DNA of 21,036 nucleotides from a virus. Both the position numbers and the translations under genes were made by a program. Every line of letters starts with the position of its first letter. Within the stretch, counting starts at the first letter, position 1. This document shows positions 1-21,005 of the stretch, piece after piece. Location: the IMG/VR virus record IMGVR_UViG_3300035698_006287, positions 1-21,036 of that record. One strand, written 5' to 3'. The notes under the pieces were generated by a model. The model was not told the DNA's origin, searched no databases, and saw nothing but the letters and a program-made list of their open reading frames with translations.

Positions 1-1487
1 TTAAAAGTAACCCCTACTGATTCATTTCCGGTACAAGTAGTACCACCAACAACCGAAGTCTCTGTATGAATACAGGCTATCCCTACTGGAGCAGAACCAG
101 TGTTCGGGGTAAGTGTCAGCCCTGCATCTGTTATCTCAGTATATGTAGAAACGTCTCCAACACCAAGAGAAGGATTCGCACCACTTATATATCCAGCTAC
201 AAACCAATCTGTTTTATCTTTGTAGATTTTGGATTTGGGAGGGTAATATTTAATATAAATTTCAAACTCTGCTGCACTGGTTGTTATCCGTGAATTATCA
301 CCACTTACTACATCTTGCTGCACTTGCCATGTTACATTTGTTTGAGCTGTTGAATAAGAAAATCTACCCGTGATTGTGCCTTGATATGGCACAGGATCAA
401 GTGTAGCAAGCTGGCTAAAAAGACCGGCATATTGCAATGAAGTATGTGTTGTCCCATCACTGAAACGCCACAAACTTCTTGCGGCAGCACCATTATCCTC
501 GTATGTATTAAAACCACCTATTGCTATAATTTCATAATCACCTGCTGGCATAGAAGCAAACTCAATTTTTGGAACTTGTCCATCAGCATCAGCAGCAGCA
601 GTTCCCGAGGTTACATGACCCAACCCATCCGTAGCAGTTCTGGCATTATCATCACATTCCGCATCAGCACTGAAATTAGTTGGAGATGTTGCCGTACCAC
701 TCCATTCACAACTAGCAGTTGCATCCCACTTTAGACTCCCAAATAATCCAGCTTGAGCAATCTCAGGTGTCATTGTTGCTGGCATTGCACCGATGAAAAC
801 ATTTTTTACATCAAAGGCATCATCTTCCAAGGGAAAATCTGCAAACCATCCATTACTTGTAGTATCTGCTACAAAAGGTATTACGTATTCGTGCCATCCA
901 TCTTCTATTATATCTTTACAGGCACCAGCTAATTCACTTCCATTTGCATAGACGCAAAACTCTCCGCCTGGATCTGTAGTCTTAATCCATGCAGTAAGAA
1001 CCATTTGAACACCAGTAAATTGTACTCCAGTGGTTATTACTTCATCCCCACACCCACCAGTATCAGTACTAAGAGTGCAAGTTAAAACATTAGTACCACC
1101 ATTAAAAACATTTGCTGTTCTTGAGGCTACAGCATCAGTGGTATCAATCATCGTAAGATCTGAAGATTCAAAATCTGCATTGTTCATTAAGTTTGAATTG
1201 TTTAATGTACCCGAAGCACTTTGCATTGATTGTGCTATCACGTTCCCCATAGAATCTATTGAAGCGACTTCAGCCGAACTATTGTTCTGGACCGAGAACT
1301 TATTAACCCCTACGTCATCACCTAGATCTATTTCAAAGTCTCCGGAGTTATCCTTTAAGGTTATATTCTGCGATTGAAATTGAAATTCATCTTTAAATAC
1401 CTTTACACCATTTCCAGAAAAAGTTCCGAACCCGGCAATCGCAACCGCCGTATAAAGGAGAATAAGAAACGCAAATAGTTTTTTCAT
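1..1487 (-). CDS. Secreted-type, fibre-like protein (partial, runs off left edge)
   Basis: An open frame of 495 codons with no stop begins at an ATG at 1485-1487 and continues past base 1, so the C-terminus is missing. AGGA lies about 8 bases upstream and the previous gene stops 4 bases before. The N-terminus MKKLFAFLILLYTAVAIAG is a textbook Sec signal peptide (two lysines, hydrophobic core, AIA before the likely cut). Next comes a segment with NKFSVQNN and EVASIDSMGNV, a pattern common in tail-fibre shaft repeats. Then a beta-rich part (NADFES near residue 110, WIKTT, later GWHEYVIPF) resembles carbohydrate-binding jelly-roll domains. The rest is rich in Thr, Gly, Asp and Asn with scattered Cys. 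Its place at the end of the late operon suggests a receptor-binding or appendage protein, but a signal peptide is odd for a virion part assembled in the cytoplasm. The frame is certain; the role is inferred. Confidence 0.8.
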   Translation of the reverse strand, partial: MKKLFAFLILLYTAVAIAGFGTFSGNGVKVFKDEFQFQSQNITLKDNSGDFEIDLGDDVGVNKFSVQNNSSAEVASIDSMGNVIAQSMQSASGTLNNSNLMNNADFESSDLTMIDTTDAVASRTANVFNGGTNVLTCTLSTDTGGCGDEVITTGVQFTGVQMVLTAWIKTTDPGGEFCVYANGSELAGACKDIIEDGWHEYVIPFVADTTSNGWFADFPLEDDAFDVKNVFIGAMPATMTPEIAQAGLFGSLKWDATASCEWSGTATSPTNFSADAECDDNARTATDGLGHVTSGTAAADADGQVPKIEFASMPAGDYEIIAIGGFNTYEDNGAAARSLWRFSDGTTHTSLQYAGLFSQLATLDPVPYQGTITGRFSYSTAQTNVTWQVQQDVVSGDNSRITTSAAEFEIYIKYYPPKSKIYKDKTDWFVAGYISGANPSLGVGDVSTYTEITDAGLTLTPNTGSAPVGIACIHTETSVVGGTTCTGNESVGVTF

Positions 1488-1491
1488 AAAA

Positions 1492-3081
1492 TTATCCTAT
1501 AAAGTTTGCAGTTAAATCACCCAGTACAATATCCGTATCTTCCATATTTCTTAAACCTATAACTGTGGTAGCAGCTAGAGAACAAGGCGTTGTCTCGTTA
1601 CTACCCGCACCTATAATACATTCAAGTAAAGGAGTTCCTGCAGGATCAGAGTAGATCCCTATCTTTGCTCCGGTAGTATCGAAGAATTGAATCTTCTTAA
1701 CCACTGCAGCTAGTGAAGCTACTACTGTCACAGGAGTTCCGTTAGATGACTTAGGAATTGTTGTGGTCCCACAAACATGTAAAGGAACATCGAAGAAATC
1801 TACAGTGTCTTCTACCGCTTCTTGAGCATTCTTTATTGCTGTTAGCGCTGTATTAGCGTCGTCATCTCTAACCTGAAGTTCGTTTGATGCGTTGACGTTT
1901 GCTGTCTCAACACCATCAGATATTTTTACATTACCAATCAGTTGAGTTCCTGCAGGGATTTCACTTGCAAGATCTACGTCACCTATGTTTTGAGTTCCAG
2001 CGGGTAGTTCCGCTACAATGTCACACTGGTATTGTCCACCTGTTACAGCAGCGGATAAAATAGAAGTGTCGGCATCAATCAATGCTAGAGTTGTTTGGGT
2101 AGCAATGCCACCAATATCGACTAGATCTACCTGATATTGACCGCCTGTTACAGCAGCGGATAAAATAGAAGTGTCGGCATCAATGGTTCCGAGAAGTGTA
2201 TTTCCATCATCATCCCTAACCTGAAGTTCATTACTAGCATTGATGTTTGCAGTCTCAACACCATCGGATAATTTTACATTACCAATTAGCTGAGTACCCG
2301 CAGGAATTTCTGCAACAATGTCACACTGGTATTGTCCACCCGTTACAGCAGCAGAAAGAATAGAAGTGTCGGCATCAATGGTTCCTAGAAGTGTATTAGC
2401 GTCGTCATCTCTGACTTGCATTTCACCTGATGCGTTAACTAGTACTACTTCCGTACCATCTCCAATTTGCATTGAATCTGGGTTTGCTCCAGTGTGGGTA
2501 CACTGAACATTGATGTCTTCAGCAGTTATATTAATATAAGCAGATGTCCCCATTATTTTAACAGGAACAGCTATGTTGTTACTTGGAGTGTCTTGGTCAT
2601 CTAGTATAGTCGTTGCTACAGTTGATCCCCCAGACAAAACATTAATCTGTATAGGAGGAGTAGTCACTGACGAAAGTGTCGCTCCGGATTCATCTAGTCT
2701 TTGAGAGATAGGACGAAGTAAATCTACAGTGTCTCCCGCAGAAAAATCAACGGAAGCAAGCCCATTGAGTTCTAACTCATTTGCATTTGTGATTGATTTA
2801 ACTGAAATCTCTACTTCATCAAATGTATTAGAAGTAGTCTTCGGTCTAATAATGTCACCAACTTTTGCGGTGTGTGCAGTAATCTTAACTGTATGGTTAT
2901 CTGATCCAGCTAGGATTACAGCGTTTTCTGTAACGCGATAGTTTCCTACAGGCATAACATCTAGTGCTACACGCTGTGAACCTCTACTCGAAACTGTTAC
3001 AAAATCTTTGTGTTTTAGATCAACGCTATCCGTAGCGTCTGACATTTTCCCTGAAAAGGGCATTCCCCATAAGTTTGACAT
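1492..3081 (-). CDS. Repeat-containing tail/appendage structural protein
   Basis: 529 residues. The start follows a strong GGAGG seven bases before the ATG. The protein is mostly predicted beta-rich (Thr, Val, Asp, Gly, Ala) with no signal peptide. Its middle holds internal repeats: IDADTSILSAAVTGGQYQ occurs at about residues 235, 300 and 335, and a block with IPAGTQLIGNV, SDGVETAN and ELQVRDDD is repeated between them. The C-terminal part (from about 430) is non-repeated and contains several Cys. It directly follows the largest internal virion protein, where T7-like phages carry the tail fibre gene, so a tail spike, fibre or adaptor role is likely. I recognise no named domain and no catalytic motif. 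The function is inferred from position and repeat architecture only. Confidence 0.8.
   Translation of the reverse strand: MSNLWGMPFSGKMSDATDSVDLKHKDFVTVSSRGSQRVALDVMPVGNYRVTENAVILAGSDNHTVKITAHTAKVGDIIRPKTTSNTFDEVEISVKSITNANELELNGLASVDFSAGDTVDLLRPISQRLDESGATLSSVTTPPIQINVLSGGSTVATTILDDQDTPSNNIAVPVKIMGTSAYINITAEDINVQCTHTGANPDSMQIGDGTEVVLVNASGEMQVRDDDANTLLGTIDADTSILSAAVTGGQYQCDIVAEIPAGTQLIGNVKLSDGVETANINASNELQVRDDDGNTLLGTIDADTSILSAAVTGGQYQVDLVDIGGIATQTTLALIDADTSILSAAVTGGQYQCDIVAELPAGTQNIGDVDLASEIPAGTQLIGNVKISDGVETANVNASNELQVRDDDANTALTAIKNAQEAVEDTVDFFDVPLHVCGTTTIPKSSNGTPVTVVASLAAVVKKIQFFDTTGAKIGIYSDPAGTPLLECIIGAGSNETTPCSLAATTVIGLRNMEDTDIVLGDLTANFIG
1851..2460 (-). repeat. Internal DNA and protein repeats in the tail protein gene
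   Basis: Three near-identical copies of a roughly 55-bp segment encode IDADTSILSAAVTGGQYQ (about 2319-2379, 2131-2184 and 2023-2078). A longer unit of about 110 bp, encoding ELQVRDDD, SDGVETAN, IGNV and IPAGTQ in coding-strand reverse order, lies at about 1851-1962 and 2199-2311, with a partial copy near 2393-2460. The copies stay similar in DNA as well as protein, which points to recent duplication or gene conversion within the gene. Confidence 0.85.
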
Positions 3082-3131: not shown

Positions 3132-6100
3132 CTACTGTCCTTCAGTTAATTTATCTATAAAAGATTTCTTTTTTGCGTTAATAAAGTCTCTAATATCAGG
3201 ATTCTCCATCTCTAATTGTTGCTTTGCCATCCTTCTATATAGAGATACCCACTTCTTTATTGCCATGCGTCTACCTTGATCGCTAGATCCGCTTCGACCC
3301 ATGAACTGTCTGAATCCGTTTTCCATGTCTTTAGCTATAGCATCCTTTAAAGTAACCCCGTTAGTTCCTCTAAGCTCATGTCCTGAAGCAAGCTGAATGT
3401 ATCTATCGTACTGCTTAGGAGTTAAGTTTCTCGATACTTGCTGTCCAGCTATACTAGATGCCATCGTCTTCTTAGGCATGGTTATTTTAAGGAATGACTC
3501 CCCTTCAGCAGGTTGGTCTATGTCTAAAGCACTGACCATTCCAAGACGGAGTATTTCTTGATCAACTTTATCAGGTCTCTTTATTGTATGAATTGGAGAT
3601 TCAAATTCAGTACCTAGAGGATATAGGATTTCTTCTCCCCATAAATTTCTTCTAGGAGGAAGTCCCTTAGACGCCCAAGGAATACCATTTAAGAATTTGT
3701 CTTTAAGATCATCCCAGTAACAATCATCTGGGAATTTAGTATCACGTTGAACAGGATCCACTTGTTTTCTAGCTGCTCTAAGAAGGGCACTAAGTGGAAC
3801 CGCTGTACTTGTTAGCAGTCCTTGAGACATGCTACGTATTGATTTCTCGTCACCATTTAAAACGGATAGAAGATCTGATGTTGTATCAACTAAAAATTCA
3901 GGGGTAACGAAGTTTGTAATAGCGTTAGTTAAAGAAAGTGCGTAGGCTTCATAGTCTGTTTCTCTTCCTTCATGATATGCATCCCTACTTACTTCTACTG
4001 CATCGGCATAAAGACCCATGATCTTCCCATAAATATCATCTTGTTTGTAGTTGATTCGAGCAAAGCCTAGATCCATTGTGTAGGGTTCTTTACCTAGTGA
4101 CTTCCATAGTTTCTGAGTAGTAGGATCTTTAGGACCACTTCCAGTAATCATTCCGGAGTATGCCATAATTCCTGAGACTGTTCCTACCATAGAACCCATT
4201 GTTAATTTTGCTAGGGCCATATCCGCGTCTCTACCGCCTGTCTTTAATGCCTTATATAATGAAGTATTAAATGGAGTTCTTTGAGCAGCATACCCGACTA
4301 GGTTCACGGGAGTTCTATAGAAAGGATAGAGCATCTTAAGACCCCAACTACTTTCAATAGTAGCACCTGCTTTTCTAAAGAATTCTCCTCGTTTGCCTTG
4401 CTGTTTAAGATTACCACTTTCTGATAGAGCGGATTTTGTAGCAGTCTTCCCTAGTGGATTAGTGAAGGTTTGAACTTCACCATATTCGATTGCTTGCTTA
4501 ATCATTCTAGAACTTGGGTTTTGTGTCTTTTGTTTGAATAGCGCCTGAACTTCATCTTTAGTTAATTCTTTTTCAATCCCTTCTGAATATGCTTCTCTCC
4601 AAGCCGATGCATTTATTTCTGCATTTACATTTATGATCTTAGAGAATTGGTCAGCTTGAGTTAGAGCTTTTCCTGGTAGACCATATCCACCAAGTATTTT
4701 CCCGAAGGTTGATTGTGCCCACTCAGGATCATTCATTGTTCCCATTTTAGTATTTTCTGAAAGCGCATTACCAAACATCTTTCCTTCAGCTTCTACAATA
4801 CCTTCAGATATCTCATTAACACTTTGTTTTATATTTTTACCAAACCTAGTCTTCTTGATGGCTTGTTTTGCTTTAAGCTGCATTGCTTTAAGTCCTGAAG
4901 AGTATCCTTCAAGTGTTCCCTGAAACATTGCTCCTACTTCGCCTTTAACAACGCCGTCTAAGCTATTGCCTCTAAGTTTAGTGATGCCTCTTCCAATAGC
5001 TCTTTCCCCAAATGATGTCCATGTTACTAGCTGGTTAGTTACAAAGTTCTTCATGTGAGTTGTGGGTGAGGATAGAAGTCCGTTAGCTCTCATCCAAAGA
5101 GAATAGTCTTTGAAGTTTGATAGGTGTCTTCCAGCTCTCATAGCTTTAGGATCAACTTTAGTGACAGCTTCTAGAACTTCTTTGATAGTATCACTTCCAC
5201 CATAGGATTCTTCAACGCCTTTATAGTATCGTGCTAATTCTGTTTCACTTAGCTTTCCAGGATTCTCTTGAGTCATCCTAAGAAGTCTAGCACTTTCACT
5301 TACCGATCCAGATGCCTGAGCATGTAGTTCTCTGTATCTGTTTAAAGCATTTAATGCTCTAGCTTGATCTTGAATGTTGCCTGTCTTGACGGCTACCTTA
5401 CGCTTAATCTCATAGTCTAATCTTCCGTACTCAACGATCTTGGCTGATTTCCATTGCTGCTCAGGAGTAAGAATAGTCCCTATCTTTCTAGCTCTTAGTT
5501 CTTCGGGACTGTAGCCTGTAACAGACGAAAGATTATCCATTGCTTCAACTTCAATCTTCCCACGTTTGGCCTCATCTATTAGATCAATATCGTTTACTAG
5601 TTCATCAAGATTCTTACCTTCTTCAAGCCCTTTGTTTATCCTGGCAAATTCATCGCTACCCTCTATTTCTTTAAATTTAGTTAGTGGAGAAGGTTTGGCT
5701 TTCAATCTGCCAGCTTTTATTTCTTCTTTAATAAGTTTAACTTCTTTACCCGCTTTCTCAATGTCAGCAATATCTACTTTCTTAGAGACTACTCTTTTCT
5801 CTAGTTCGATCGCTTCCTTGAACTGGTTCTTCATTACCCTGGCCTGTCTTAGTGCTCCAAGAGAAGCCGAAACTGCTTCTATAGCAGTACCTATTCCTAG
5901 TCCTTCTAAGGCATTCTTTAAGCGATTAGTCTCAGCAGTGTTCTTAGGATTCGTTGCCATGAAAGCATTCACTGGATTGCTTAGCATTGGATACTTCTGA
6001 ACAAGATTGGATAGATTTTCTTCATAAGGATCAAACGCAGCAAACGCTACGGAAGCAGCAATGGCTTCGGTTTTCATGAACTTAGAAAATTTAGAAATGG

Positions 6101-6695
6101 CCTGTATTCCTTTAGTGGCTTTAGACATCCCTGCAAATGGTGCCACAAATTGAGCAATCCCTGCAGTTAAATTCTGTACAGCACCTTCTGGCTGATACAC
6201 ATATTCTGAATTATGGGTGTAGTTTAATCTCTCCATATCAGCTAACGGAGCTTTAACATCTTTGAATCCCATTTCATCATAGAACTTTTGTGTTGCTTGA
6301 GAAGCATCAATAAACATATTGGCAGTGGATTCTATTCCACGAAGTATCCCTGTTCCTACTGCTGGAATTGTTCCAGGCAGTTTCTTAATTTGTTCCCCTA
6401 CTTTCGCAACACCCTCGGGTACTTTTACCCCTATTTTTCCAGCAAGTGAGTTTGGTGGGGCATCTACTCCAGGTTGTTCGGGTTGAGAAGCTTCCGGAGG
6501 TGGGGCATCTTGTCCCTGTAGTTGGGAGTTAATATTAGCTTCATCTTTTTGTTCTTCCATTGGTTCTGGAGTTTCATAGGCACCGATACCGTATTTCTTT
6601 TCCAGTGCAGATGTTTCAACGTCTTCACTGTTAGCTATAGTTCTTTTTCTGTATGTCTCTTGCAGGATAGGAGATTGTTTGATCATGTCTTCCAT
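3132..6695 (-). CDS. Large internal virion protein (T7 gp16-like position)
   Basis: 1187 residues, close to the 1318 of T7 gp16 and in the same place, last of the internal core genes. The start codon abuts the previous stop (TAAATG) and has an AGGGGAAG ribosome binding site. Residues 40-80 are Pro/Glu/Gln-rich and probably disordered. Several Ala/Gly-rich amphipathic or hydrophobic stretches follow, for example GAVQNLTAGIAQFVAPFAG, AIAASVAFAAFDP near 220 and a hydrophobic helix near 822-850. The C-terminal third (about 670-900) carries YPFYRTPVNL, LWKSLGKEPYTMDLG and a YGKIMGLYADAVE segment. I associate this pattern with large podoviral core proteins (perhaps the LPD38-type region). No lytic transglycosylase motif is evident at the N-terminus, unlike T7 gp16. 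Likely role: an ejected core protein that helps carry DNA through the envelope. The assignment rests on position, size and the C-terminal pattern. Confidence 0.8.
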   Translation of the reverse strand: MEDMIKQSPILQETYRKRTIANSEDVETSALEKKYGIGAYETPEPMEEQKDEANINSQLQGQDAPPPEASQPEQPGVDAPPNSLAGKIGVKVPEGVAKVGEQIKKLPGTIPAVGTGILRGIESTANMFIDASQATQKFYDEMGFKDVKAPLADMERLNYTHNSEYVYQPEGAVQNLTAGIAQFVAPFAGMSKATKGIQAISKFSKFMKTEAIAASVAFAAFDPYEENLSNLVQKYPMLSNPVNAFMATNPKNTAETNRLKNALEGLGIGTAIEAVSASLGALRQARVMKNQFKEAIELEKRVVSKKVDIADIEKAGKEVKLIKEEIKAGRLKAKPSPLTKFKEIEGSDEFARINKGLEEGKNLDELVNDIDLIDEAKRGKIEVEAMDNLSSVTGYSPEELRARKIGTILTPEQQWKSAKIVEYGRLDYEIKRKVAVKTGNIQDQARALNALNRYRELHAQASGSVSESARLLRMTQENPGKLSETELARYYKGVEESYGGSDTIKEVLEAVTKVDPKAMRAGRHLSNFKDYSLWMRANGLLSSPTTHMKNFVTNQLVTWTSFGERAIGRGITKLRGNSLDGVVKGEVGAMFQGTLEGYSSGLKAMQLKAKQAIKKTRFGKNIKQSVNEISEGIVEAEGKMFGNALSENTKMGTMNDPEWAQSTFGKILGGYGLPGKALTQADQFSKIINVNAEINASAWREAYSEGIEKELTKDEVQALFKQKTQNPSSRMIKQAIEYGEVQTFTNPLGKTATKSALSESGNLKQQGKRGEFFRKAGATIESSWGLKMLYPFYRTPVNLVGYAAQRTPFNTSLYKALKTGGRDADMALAKLTMGSMVGTVSGIMAYSGMITGSGPKDPTTQKLWKSLGKEPYTMDLGFARINYKQDDIYGKIMGLYADAVEVSRDAYHEGRETDYEAYALSLTNAITNFVTPEFLVDTTSDLLSVLNGDEKSIRSMSQGLLTSTAVPLSALLRAARKQVDPVQRDTKFPDDCYWDDLKDKFLNGIPWASKGLPPRRNLWGEEILYPLGTEFESPIHTIKRPDKVDQEILRLGMVSALDIDQPAEGESFLKITMPKKTMASSIAGQQVSRNLTPKQYDRYIQLASGHELRGTNGVTLKDAIAKDMENGFRQFMGRSGSSDQGRRMAIKKWVSLYRRMAKQQLEMENPDIRDFINAKKKSFIDKLTEGQ

Positions 6696-8729: not shown

Positions 8730-9170
8730 TTACACCACCTTTGCAAATAAGATATGGTCTCTTCCGTGAACATCAAATGATTTCATTACACCTTCAGCTT
8801 CAAAACCAAGCTTCTCGGCCCATTTGATTCCTTTCTTCCAGCCATCAAGTATTGACATCTCTAGTCTGTAGTAGCCTAGATCCTGGAAAACGTACCCATA
8901 TATTAGTCTGTAAATTGCTTTAAAAAATCCGTTCTTATACTTATCTACCGGAGTACCTGCTAAGATCCAAAGTTCACCAACACCATTCCTACGTTTAGTA
9001 ACTCCTGCAATACATAGGTTCTCACCTGTTTGTTCATTATAAACCGTAAGCATAGCCACGCCTGGATTGCAGAAATTTTTCAACATGTCGTTATAGAATG
9101 AGTCTGTAAACTTTTCTTTGAATTCAACATTCACTAGGTCTTCCATTTTAAAGTGTCTTGCTTTAATCAT
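8730..9170 (-). CDS. GNAT-fold protein, T7 gp13-like
   Basis: 146 residues, against 138 for T7 gp13. The ATG overlaps the end of the tail tube B gene by 8 bases (ATGATTAA) and has AGAGG upstream. The C-terminal half reads like a GNAT acetyltransferase: a beta strand YYRLEMSIL at about 100-108, then IKWAEKLGFEAEGVMK at 115-130, the usual end of the fold. The canonical acetyl-CoA loop (R/Q-x-x-G-x-G/A) is not clear; the equivalent region reads VDKYKNGFFKAIYRL (75-89). Many podoviruses have this protein between tail tube B and the core genes, and in T7 it is needed for virion morphogenesis. It may be a structural or assembly factor rather than an active enzyme. Fold fairly sure, activity doubtful. 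Confidence 0.8.
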   Translation of the reverse strand: MIKARHFKMEDLVNVEFKEKFTDSFYNDMLKNFCNPGVAMLTVYNEQTGENLCIAGVTKRRNGVGELWILAGTPVDKYKNGFFKAIYRLIYGYVFQDLGYYRLEMSILDGWKKGIKWAEKLGFEAEGVMKSFDVHGRDHILFAKVV

Positions 9171-11367
9171 AAGAGTTTCCTCTTAGAACCATACCAAGTA
9201 AATTAAATGGATAGGGTTGATCATGAACAATCTCAACCTTTATTTCTTCATTCGCTGCACATCCAAATCCAGGACTTTTCTTACCACTGAATAAAGTAGT
9301 GTCAGCATATTCTAAATTCTGTTTACTAGTGTCGTCTTCAGTACCGAATGATCCGCCTTGTGATTTGTATAGTTTGAAAGTTACTTTATCTACTTCCTTA
9401 ATCTCACCCTGAGTAGAACCCTCGTTATCTTCTCCAGCTTCTATGTCTTGGATTCTCATCTTAGAGGAATAGTTTAAACCAACAATAACTATGTCCCCTG
9501 AAACATAATCTTTATCTAATGTTATCTTTCCGGAAGCTACAGTCTTACTGGTATGCTCAACACCATTAACAGTAACATCACATGTCTCACCTTCAAGGTG
9601 ACTTAATCCAGTAACTTGATCAGTAGTAGATCCAAGTACGACTCTTATTCCACTGTCCGCGAACCACGGATAATCATCCGTATCGGTAGAAGTACTGGCC
9701 ACGTTAGTGTGTTTAAAATCAGCACCCATTTTCTCTAGGTAATAAACTGTACTAGAATTTATTGTCCTACCTATGCTTAACCATAGTTCATTGTAGGATC
9801 CATCGCTATTAGGTATTACAGCAACCCCATAAACTTTTACATCGCTACCACCGAAGGTATGTCGATGCCATGCTGTAGCGCCTTTCCTTACGTCGAAGGT
9901 ACATGCTACTAATTCATTGCTGCTGGTTATACACCAAATAATCTTTCTATTTGATTGATAGGTTATTTGAACAAACTCAAGTCCCGCATAGCTAGAAGCC
10001 GCTGCTCCGTCAAACCCATGCGCTACTATATGTTCCGCCAAAACATTTACGTCGTCAGTTACATAGGAACCATTTGCCTCATTGTATCTAAAATCGTACA
10101 GACGCTTTCCATCTAACCCAACAAAGATAATATCATTCCCTACTTTTATTGCCATAACAGGAGATGAACCTGTAGTTGTTTGTTCTTTATTTTTAGCTGA
10201 AGATCTACTTAATATAGAATCACCACCGGTTATGATGTGTTCAGCGCCCATAGTTCCCATGACTAAAGTGTTGCCAGATATAAGCCATGAGACGTTATTG
10301 GATTGCTGACTAAGCGGAGTAAGAGCTAGTGGGTCAGTGTCCACTTCGTCGGTTCCTCTTCCACCATATTCTAGAAGATCCCTAGCAAGTCCGGCACTCG
10401 CCTGAGTAAATCTTTTAGTCATCATGTGGAATAAGTTTCCGTTAGCTGAGGCATATATTGAATCTTTCTTTAGTCCTGTTCCACCCCAAAAAATTCTTCC
10501 TTCATACAACGTAACACTTCTAGGCCATCCCTGGTAATCACTCCATGCAGATTCTTCCCAGTTATCAGAAGCATTGGAAGCACCAAAGGTTACTTCAACG
10601 GTTGCTGTTACTTCGGTAGCACTAGTATAGGCGGTTACTTTAGCTATTCCAGTTATACTGGTTCCGGAATCAGTTACCCTGAATCTTGCCCCAACATGTG
10701 TTGCTACAAACAACGCGGCACTGGCAGTCAATGTTATACTCGCACCAAGGGCAATTCCACCACCTGCAATCTCAGCAGGGGTTATAGTTATAGCACTTAG
10801 ATTTGGATCAAGGTAAGGCATGTGCATACATGCCGCTACGTTAATATCTGGAATCACTCTACTGTATGTATTAACTGTATAGTTATAATGATAGAAAGTA
10901 ATCACTCCGTTAATAACAGTCTTCACTAAATAAAATGGTTCCACTGTTCCACTGTTATGTGTGACAAATAAAATGTTACCCGCTTGAGCGAAATGCCATC
11001 CATTATGATCTAGTGTTGTGGCGTAGGTTACAGCAGTTTTAAAAATTAATAGTTTAGCCACTCCTGCTGAATCAAATATTTGAATTGGTGCTGTAGTACT
11101 GGATATAACTCCGTTGGGTCTAATGACCACAACATAGCTTTCTTTTTTACTCATAATAAAGGGTAGCAAATCGGGATTTATTAAATCACTTATATCTACA
11201 ATATATCTGGTTGATGGTCTTTTAGAAACACCCCTTTGAATTAAAGGAAAGAAGTTTTCTAGGTGTTCACATGATCTATCGTACTCTTCAAGATCAATAC
11301 ACATTCTAGCTTCATTTGATATTTCACCAGCAATAAAGTTATTGTATAGTTTTTTAAATTTTGCCAT
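9163..11367 (-). CDS. Tail tubular protein B (T7 gp12-like nozzle protein)
   Basis: 734 residues (794 in T7 gp12). The N-terminus contains the family signature NNFIAGEISNEARMCIDLEE, then YDRSCEHLENFFPLIQRGVSKRPSTRYI (residues 9-56). It marks podoviral tail tube or 'stabilisation' proteins. The remainder is beta-rich, with blocks such as GRIFWGGTG, LSQQSNNVSWLISG and the C-terminal KSPGFGCAANEEIKVEIVHDQPYPFNLLGMVLRG, also typical of this family. The start shares one base with the stop of tail tube A (TAATG), so the two are translationally coupled, and AGAGG precedes it. It forms the distal nozzle of the short tail below the gp11-like adaptor. Confidence 0.92.
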   Translation of the reverse strand: MAKFKKLYNNFIAGEISNEARMCIDLEEYDRSCEHLENFFPLIQRGVSKRPSTRYIVDISDLINPDLLPFIMSKKESYVVVIRPNGVISSTTAPIQIFDSAGVAKLLIFKTAVTYATTLDHNGWHFAQAGNILFVTHNSGTVEPFYLVKTVINGVITFYHYNYTVNTYSRVIPDINVAACMHMPYLDPNLSAITITPAEIAGGGIALGASITLTASAALFVATHVGARFRVTDSGTSITGIAKVTAYTSATEVTATVEVTFGASNASDNWEESAWSDYQGWPRSVTLYEGRIFWGGTGLKKDSIYASANGNLFHMMTKRFTQASAGLARDLLEYGGRGTDEVDTDPLALTPLSQQSNNVSWLISGNTLVMGTMGAEHIITGGDSILSRSSAKNKEQTTTGSSPVMAIKVGNDIIFVGLDGKRLYDFRYNEANGSYVTDDVNVLAEHIVAHGFDGAAASSYAGLEFVQITYQSNRKIIWCITSSNELVACTFDVRKGATAWHRHTFGGSDVKVYGVAVIPNSDGSYNELWLSIGRTINSSTVYYLEKMGADFKHTNVASTSTDTDDYPWFADSGIRVVLGSTTDQVTGLSHLEGETCDVTVNGVEHTSKTVASGKITLDKDYVSGDIVIVGLNYSSKMRIQDIEAGEDNEGSTQGEIKEVDKVTFKLYKSQGGSFGTEDDTSKQNLEYADTTLFSGKKSPGFGCAANEEIKVEIVHDQPYPFNLLGMVLRGNSYD

Positions 11368-16894: not shown

Positions 16895-18427
16895 TCACGC
16901 TATGTTTCCAAATATACTATAATCGGTCTCAGCCATTCTTGGCAAATCATTATAATACGATTTAAAGTGACCCGGACGGTCATCGAGTGCCGAGTACCCA
17001 AAAGCTGTGGAACCATGACTAGACCAATCATGTCTGGGCGTATTTCTAAATACCCTTAACTTATTATCGAACTCTCTCTGATAATTGTAAAGACATTCAA
17101 TCCCACGCTCACACTTGGTGACATCTATATAAGATGTGCGAAGCCTGGTCCGCGTCGCTTGGATCCTATCACTGACTGCTTGTCTCGGTTGAATCTGTAC
17201 CGTAAGTCCCATGCTCTCTGCAACCTCTTGTCTACTTTGCCCACTTCCGAATTCTCTCACCCTTCCATCGTGCGGCCATACGTGCTTACCATAACTGTAA
17301 GGCTTCTCGTTGATTACTTTATAGTAATGCTCAAGTCCTTTCCCTCGGTTCTCGTAATAATCTATGTAGTGCCAATTAGGACCAACTTTCTGTCTGAACC
17401 AAATTACAGTTTGGTCATTCACACCAAGATCCCAAAAGGTATCGACAGGATGCCCTGGATGCCAAGGAACGTGGGTGATTTGATCGTTCTTCCTTATATC
17501 AGCTAAGATCTCACCGAAGTAAGCACCTATGATCGCGGCGGTGAAGTCACACTCGAGTTCCTGATTTCGTTCTGATTCCGTCATGTCCAGAACCATTTCA
17601 TCCATCTCATCTCTATCAAGAATTCCAGTCTCACTTGCCTTGTGTATGATCGAGTACCATTGCGCACTGGCACGGTACTTTCTATATTCGTTGTACTTCT
17701 CTCTTTCAATATTTGGAACTGCCCCTAAAATCTCTTTTAACTTTACTTCGGGTAAGTGTTGATGTATGCCGTTGTCCTTATCAAACTGTAAAACCCACCG
17801 CTTCATTTCCGCAACATCAAAAGCACGTTCATAGTACTGGGCAAATGCCATCGCATCTTGTGCCGCTCTATACCTTAAGTAGAAATGATTCTGCCCCTTG
17901 GGTGTTCCAATAAAAATAGACCAGCCTTTTCTATCAGCTAAAGCAGGTCTTACAATCTGACCCCAAACAATCGGATCACATTGTGCGAACTCATCTAGAA
18001 TCCCACCATCCAAGTAGATCCCTCTAATAGCTTCTGGGTCATCGGAACCAATACACATCAATTTAATTTGATCTGCTTCGTAACTCCTCCCCTGAACAAT
18101 TCTCTTAGGTCTATCGAGATAAACCGTCAACTCTGTCTTATTTGGATTGTACCCTGGAAGATCTTTAGTGAACTGATTAAGAGGATCCCACGCAATTCGT
18201 TTAGCCTGTTTGTATGTTGGAGCAATGTAAGCGTACTGAGGATTATATAGATTATTATGAACCGCCCTATCAATCATCTCATTAAGAGAGAATATAGTCT
18301 TACCAAAACGACGGTGACATACAAGTACATTATGCCGATGAAGATCACCATGCAAATCGTTTTGCAAAGGTCTCGGCACATAACCAGTACTGACTTCTTT
18401 AACAATCGCTTCACTTACTTGATTCAT
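16895..18427 (-). CDS. Terminase large subunit (DNA packaging motor)
   Basis: 510 residues. The ATPase part shows the Walker A-like CHRRFGKT (37-44), the Walker B GGILDEFA with Asp145-Glu146, and the coupling segment IFIGTPKG (171-178). The nuclease part has the acidic sites WDLGVND (Asp333), PHDG (386-388) and HDWSSHGSTAFGYSA (466-480), as in RNase H-type terminases. Between GTPKG...YRAAQ and WYSIIHKASETGIL there is an extra, largely helical stretch at about residues 193-257 that I do not expect in close relatives. The gene overlaps the preceding coiled-coil gene by 17 bases. The motor cuts and pumps DNA into the head through the portal. The host-side partner is the small terminase encoded upstream. 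Confidence 0.95.
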   Translation of the reverse strand: MNQVSEAIVKEVSTGYVPRPLQNDLHGDLHRHNVLVCHRRFGKTIFSLNEMIDRAVHNNLYNPQYAYIAPTYKQAKRIAWDPLNQFTKDLPGYNPNKTELTVYLDRPKRIVQGRSYEADQIKLMCIGSDDPEAIRGIYLDGGILDEFAQCDPIVWGQIVRPALADRKGWSIFIGTPKGQNHFYLRYRAAQDAMAFAQYYERAFDVAEMKRWVLQFDKDNGIHQHLPEVKLKEILGAVPNIEREKYNEYRKYRASAQWYSIIHKASETGILDRDEMDEMVLDMTESERNQELECDFTAAIIGAYFGEILADIRKNDQITHVPWHPGHPVDTFWDLGVNDQTVIWFRQKVGPNWHYIDYYENRGKGLEHYYKVINEKPYSYGKHVWPHDGRVREFGSGQSRQEVAESMGLTVQIQPRQAVSDRIQATRTRLRTSYIDVTKCERGIECLYNYQREFDNKLRVFRNTPRHDWSSHGSTAFGYSALDDRPGHFKSYYNDLPRMAETDYSIFGNIA

Positions 18428-20702: not shown

Positions 20703-21005
20703 ATGAACAACTTTACAGATTATCTTAAACTAGTAGGCATTGCAGCAACGACTATCCTTTTCTTTTTATTGGTAACTACCAACGGTCACGCGGCATGCAG
20801 CCTGACACTTACCAAATTGAACCCATCGACCAAGAGTGCTTACTTAGACGGTGTGTCAATCAGTGAGAAGATACAGTCGGCCATCTCTAAGCATTGCAAT
20901 GTTACGGTAAGGGCAATGAACTTTGAGGAAAGACTTGTACATGAAAAGGCAGCGTATGAGCGGAAATTGAATAGACTAAACAAAATGAAAGGGTTCTATA
21001 AGTAG
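20703..21005 (+). CDS. Small exported protein of unknown function
   Basis: 100 residues, the only convincing plus-strand gene here. GGAG lies eight bases before the ATG. The first 30 residues form a Sec signal peptide: a short N-region (MNNFTDYLK), a hydrophobic core (LVGIAATTILFFLLVTT) and the cut motif GHA-A near residue 30. The mature part is about 70 residues, with Cys at the start (ACSLTL) and near residue 65 (SKHCNV) that could form one disulfide, then a basic, helical tail (ERKLNRLNKMKGFYK). It is not a good lipobox. It is likely periplasmic, possibly an early host-takeover or superinfection-exclusion factor. No family is recognised. A conserved promoter with operator-like repeats suggests tight control. 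Confidence 0.75.
   Translation: MNNFTDYLKLVGIAATTILFFLLVTTNGHAACSLTLTKLNPSTKSAYLDGVSISEKIQSAISKHCNVTVRAMNFEERLVHEKAAYERKLNRLNKMKGFYK

Follow-up and report, generated by a model that had tools for sequence, protein, structure and literature searches.

A Sec signal peptide at a fixed late-operon site on fibre-type proteins of uncultured podoviruses

The tails and fibres of tailed phages are assumed to fold in the cytoplasm and to be assembled there, and we know of no exported fibre in Caudoviricetes. M13 pIII is a receptor-binding virion protein made with a Sec signal peptide. The locus described here is similar in joining such a signal to a candidate receptor-binding protein of a virion; M13, however, is a filamentous phage that assembles at the membrane, and both the protein and the virion are unrelated. 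T5 Llp and lambda Lom are phage-encoded envelope proteins. Like the product studied here they are sent to the envelope (for Lom, PMC12309495), but they are a small lipoprotein or a beta-barrel, not fibre-type receptor-binding modules. No description of a signal-peptide-bearing tail fibre was found in the open full-text literature searched, and the phage targets of diversity-generating retroelements have been reported without signals (PMC6199706). Tail fibres of the T7 gp17 type have the same late-module position (TubA-TubB-internal virion proteins-fibre), and one adaptor type of the present group, in contig G021, weakly matches the gp17 N-terminal domain (PF03906, E 0.0012, under the cut-off); unlike in T7, adaptor and shaft/tip are here encoded by separate genes, and it is the shaft/tip gene that has the Sec signal peptide. 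An anchor with a second fibre is also found in the branched receptor-binding proteins of other podoviruses (K1-5, G7C, KP32), in which the second receptor-binding protein docks by an N-terminal peptide of 7-11 residues (PMC6872550); no export signal has been described for those second fibres, and a comparable docking is proposed for the present group. Finally, the mosaic adhesive trimer (MAT) proteins of Bdellovibrio bacteriovorus are signal-bearing, trimeric and phage-fibre-like, and have been shown on the surface of the predator; the TNF-like tip of one of them, Bd2734, has been solved (8OKW; PMC10769870). MATs share with the locus a Sec signal peptide, a phage-fibre-like body and a homologous TNF-like tip, but they are bacterial surface proteins, typically of about 1,000 aa, outside any phage late operon, and their conserved N-terminal domain, compared by the published description, was not recognised in our protein.

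The DNA analysed here, a 21,036-base record of an uncultured virus, is referred to as the window; its terminase, capsid and tube point to a distant relation to HTVC010P-type podoviruses. Its late genes lie on the minus strand in the order small and large terminase, portal, scaffold, capsid, decoration, tail tubular proteins A and B (B at 9163-11367; phrog_376, E 6.5e-111; the anchor of our synteny comparison), GNAT, gp14-, gp15- and gp16-like internal virion proteins (the last 1187 aa, 3132-6695; phrog_6651, E 7.5e-27), a 529-aa repeat-bearing protein (1492-3081) and a 495-aa open reading frame (ORF) at 3-1487. The last gene thus stands after internal virion proteins and a tail adaptor, as the tail fibres and receptor-binding proteins of podoviruses do. 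The 529-aa gene is tail-adaptor-like, lacks a signal peptide and has a C-terminal domain that is conserved between phages, unlike a variable receptor-binding tip; its AlphaFold model was weak (pLDDT 43), and a fold search with it gave no decisive match. The tail-fibre-like repeats that an earlier note had assigned to the last gene belong instead to this adaptor: all direct repeats of at least 24 nt within 1-3081 fall at 1849-2460. The same note had proposed to recover a 5' extension past the window edge; the gene being on the minus strand, what is missing at that edge is its 3' end, and with it the C-terminus. Rfam gave no matches. Elsewhere in the window, the large terminase (16895-18427) carries an insert of about 62 aa (around residues 191-256) that is missing in two relatives, and a 100-aa ORF with a signal-like N-terminus (..FLLVTTNGHAACS) lies at 20703-21005 on the plus strand, upstream of the late genes and in the opposite orientation.

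The 495-aa frame was annotated as a signal-peptide-bearing fibre protein from its ORF, its start and Shine-Dalgarno (SD) sequence, a PDB match and syntenic signal-bearing relatives. It opens with an ATG that has AGGA just before it and is separated by 4 nt from the stop of the late gene ahead of it, and its N-terminus reads MKKLFAFLILLYTAVAIA up to the predicted cleavage site and GFGTFSG after it. Residues 1-18 (1434-1487, minus strand) form a predicted Sec signal peptide, identified from the sequence and a signal-peptide scan, with a KK n-region, an uncharged hydrophobic core and cleavage between AIA and GFG (small residues at -3 and -1). Its score was among the highest of all genes scanned; signal peptides of all proteins were called with a home-made scorer and inspection by eye, rather than with SignalP. 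A downstream start codon, the explanation that the earlier note had itself named as fatal to the signal, was ruled out by a scan for starts and SD sequences: codon 1 is followed by no further ATG, GTG or TTG until codon 80, and the next start is without SD. With canonical features and one credible start, the clear signal peptide which that note had read on the last late gene is borne out.

Relatives were collected by baiting with the upstream gene and with the terminase; whole contigs were then fetched and mapped. The position is covered in 11 related uncultured podoviruses, and in nine of them the gene that immediately follows the tail-fibre adaptor bears a Sec signal peptide: the window, G007 (458 aa), G013 (736 aa), G014 (264 aa or more), G018 (691 aa), G019 (385 aa or more), G021 (1290 aa), G025 (646 aa) and MW202898 (906 aa). 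G023 and G028 are the negatives. Adaptor and signal-bearing gene are 2-9 nt apart or overlap in all nine, and G026 and G027 are arranged as in G025. A tenth case, G011, encodes a 1568-aa signal-bearing fibre behind a collagen-like adaptor remnant, its upstream context being lost; complete signal-bearing proteins thus span 458-1568 aa. The signal peptide of G032 was doubtful and was excluded from the count. None of 196 conserved late genes has a signal peptide (9/11 vs 0/196, Fisher p 3e-14, the phages being related and hence the data points dependent), so that the signal at the adaptor-adjacent site is more than chance, the same feature recurring in related phages. It was absent from this site in all five reference relatives with cultured hosts (HTVC010P, HTVC203P, Baldr, MEP301 and Vibrio 1.182.O), and the relatives of the adaptor domain in other kinds of phage contig had a signal-bearing neighbour in none of eight cases. 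In a quick terminase tree, with many forks open, the signal-bearing phages are scattered over the uncultured clade and do not fall on a single branch. MW202898 is a deposited circular genome, in which the annotation gives the 906-aa protein an upstream start and calls it a caprin-2 domain protein; the deposited start (L158:35733-38486, MW202898.1) lies 11 codons upstream of an SD-preceded ATG and masks the signal peptide.

Signal-bearing genes were also observed away from the fibre site. In related phages they encode short proteins of 172-222 aa (L017:9458-10126, L100:2657-3226, L103:2279-2839 and L149:831-1349, all on the plus strand), several of which are interrelated and resemble virion decoration domains. 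At L038:8641-10236 (+), the interval from capsid to TubA contains two adjoining signal-bearing genes (129 and 401 aa), the 401-aa protein having a tail-fibre-like N-terminal motif.

The signal-bearing proteins have modules in common with one another, and their shafts and tips are common to ordinary, signal-less tail fibres. G013 and G018 match phrog_24210, G021 matches phrog_16641 (E 1e-30), G011 matches C1q (with C1q in G021 just under the cut-off) and MW202898 has BclA_C under the cut-off; matches to tailspikes and tail fibres of cultured phages were found as well. The fibre of Sulfitobacter phage pCB2047-A, which has its tip in common with G013 and G018, is without signal and without cysteine. 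A 949-aa tail fibre without signal matches residues 41-646 of G025 at 87% identity and has no counterpart of the cysteine pair present in the exported form. The contig of G025 shows a step in GC and resembles two phages fused within a shared fibre module, so the pairing of N-termini with tips is uncertain there; this signal-less fibre, a second homologue of the G025 signal fibre, apparently belongs to another phage joined in assembly. In contigs of 70 kb and 104 kb (L123-L129), GC jumps from 42% to 56% and a further set of structural genes is present, apparently two podoviruses joined via the shared fibre module.

Several marks in the group are those of exported proteins. The number of cysteines in the mature part is even in nine of ten signal-bearing proteins (p 0.01; three of the ten are truncated), a statistic of modest strength. 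A positive n-region and an AxA-type cleavage site are found in nearly every case despite differing hydrophobic sequences. Behind a window-type adaptor the first mature residues are alike (QWF, QWF, QWY, VWV and GFG), a short motif that the product of the window (GFG) fits only loosely; in G011 and G021 they are KY, and there the mature N-terminus is well conserved and the signal region far more diverged. Small genes, themselves signal-bearing, overlap the fibre stop in G007, G013 and G011 (L018:10915-11133, plus strand; L134:1389-1610, minus strand; L132:5531-5971, plus strand; 72, 73 and 146 aa), the L018 and L134 products being clearly related. Because this overlap is the usual place of a fibre chaperone, we suggest them as candidate exported fibre chaperones, and only as a suggestion. 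Given the canonical signal, its one credible start, the recurrence across the group, the even cysteine counts and the cysteine-pair contrast of G025, the fibre-type product of the window is probably exported via Sec.

The mature window protein begins with an N-terminus and short stalk (about residues 19-94; 1206-1433, boundary by eye) with an aromatic residue at mature position +2. Residues 95-245 or so (753-1205) are likely a jelly-roll domain of carbohydrate-binding type, delimited by eye and containing Cys 137, 146, 178 and 190; Pfam gave no match in this stretch, and the low-confidence AlphaFold model has strands at 122-216. A TNF-like tip follows (residues 247-401; 285-749; phmmer to 8okw_C, E 4.9e-13), 41% identical to the tip of Bd2734 (alignment A1), with two common cysteines, Cys260 and Cys278 aligning with those of Bd2734; the cysteines of the window protein occur in pairs. 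Residues 412-495 (3-254) are the start of a further C-terminal domain, seen as ORF and cut by the window edge. The description of the product as fibre-like with a carbohydrate-binding-like region therefore stands for the binding-type region, through the 8OKW match, the jelly-roll resting on inspection by eye. The structure prediction that the earlier note had proposed was uninformative for this protein (pLDDT 36), predictions for the window being poor because relatives are few. Pfam, PHROGs and NCBIfam gave nothing weighty for the protein; the whole sequence had no relatives in viral contigs, 50,697 phages and plasmids, and the tip no believable match in phages. Scans with alignment A1 of the genome and viral collections, with the Bd2734 tip of genome contigs, and with the window internal virion protein as bait were likewise without matches.

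The earlier note had suggested that the product may be secreted, and the sequence supports export; it does not choose among the roles proposed there, namely coating the host surface, acting as a decoy, working outside the cell or being part of the virion by an unusual route. We favour the last because of the position after the adaptor, the conservation in most of the group and the shafts and tips in common with tail fibres. Specifically, and at somewhat less than an even chance, we propose a split tail fibre, of which the window gene and its relatives would supply the distal part; this receptor-binding half would be exported, oxidised in the periplasm and joined to the virion at lysis. The proximal half would be the upstream adaptor, made without signal in the cytoplasm and carried by the tail. 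The product of the next gene, the distal half, would be exported via Sec and cut by signal peptidase I, exposing a short mature N-terminus; it would fold and be oxidised in the periplasm, and would dock on the adaptor once lysis mixes virions with periplasm. This arrangement is suggested by the short adaptors without evident tip, the conserved adaptor C-terminus, the tight coupling of the genes and the podovirus precedent for docking peptides. The signal peptide, its fixed place and the modules common with ordinary fibres are supported at the level of sequence; from these we infer export in the cell, disulfide formation, N-terminal docking and receptor binding. Against a split fibre count the cytoplasmic assembly of tails, which would put off joining until lysis, the shortness of the mature N-terminal motif, and G023 and G028, which do without a signal-bearing gene. 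In a fuller version, possible though on the unlikely side, the fibre would be built in two compartments, with a cytoplasmic adaptor and a Sec-exported tip oxidised together with an exported helper and fitted at lysis, and could be the ancestor of the MAT adhesins.

The main rival is an exported receptor-binding module that acts off the virion: late in the periplasm or at the surface, or freed at lysis, it would occupy the phage receptor and so exclude other phages or stop progeny from sticking to debris. We regard it as a possible but minority explanation. The signal-bearing proteins have no virion-attachment domain of their own, and G025 offers what a blocker would need, an exported module that has 87% identity with the receptor-binding region in the fibre of another phage. 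G007 and G013 encode an additional cytoplasmic fibre (P0002-like) that could serve the virion, and because of it their signal-bearing fibre is not the sole receptor-binding candidate; in G019 and MW202898, by contrast, the adaptors are short (270-305 aa) and without evident tip, and no other tip-bearing fibre was seen adjoining. Typical exclusion genes come and go, whereas this one is nearly group-wide and at one fixed site after the adaptor; a late operon position is also late for exclusion, and with no outer-membrane translocator or lipobox recognised, a large trimer would be kept in the periplasm until lysis.

The sole solved relative of the window tip being a MAT tip, the gene could alternatively encode a MAT-type adhesin carried by phages of predators, giving the host a surface fibre with changed prey binding, or MAT genes may descend from phage fibres. 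MATs are indeed signal-bearing, trimeric, fibre-like proteins of the predator surface (PMC10769870). A related phage carries, at L017:14804-15205 (+), a lipoprotein gene with poly-glycine after the lipobox (LLSSCGGGGGG), a possible host clue. We associate lipoproteins of this type with Bdellovibrionota, and a Bdellovibrio-like host is a lead. We nevertheless find this reading doubtful: in MATs the signal is followed by a conserved beta domain of about 130 aa, and the window protein leaves only about 80 aa ahead of the next domain; the other signal fibres tested matched no MAT structures, and the fixed position after the adaptor points to a phage function.

It is also improbable that the hydrophobic N-terminus is a docking helix kept on a virion fibre and not a working signal. 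Short hydrophobic N-terminal peptides do occur on some podovirus second receptor-binding proteins (MALxxLV in KP34viruses; PMC6872550), but the retention of n-region and cleavage site over different hydrophobic sequences, the divergence of the G011/G021 signal region relative to the adjacent mature part, and the paired cysteines all argue for a signal. An artefact joining phage DNA to a bacterial adhesin gene at the contig end is hardly credible, even though the contig ends within the gene and the tip is similar to a bacterial protein, since the gap to the upstream phage gene is 4 nt with an SD, GC is even, and synteny in independent contigs and in the deposited circular MW202898 rules out a chimeric contig.

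A Sec signal on a fibre-type protein at a fixed site would mean either that these virions mature in two compartments, with disulfide chemistry, or that these phages systematically secrete receptor-binding modules against their own receptor. Either would, as far as we know, be new for Caudoviricetes. The locus also provides a concrete lead on the origin of the phage-like MAT adhesins of predatory bacteria.
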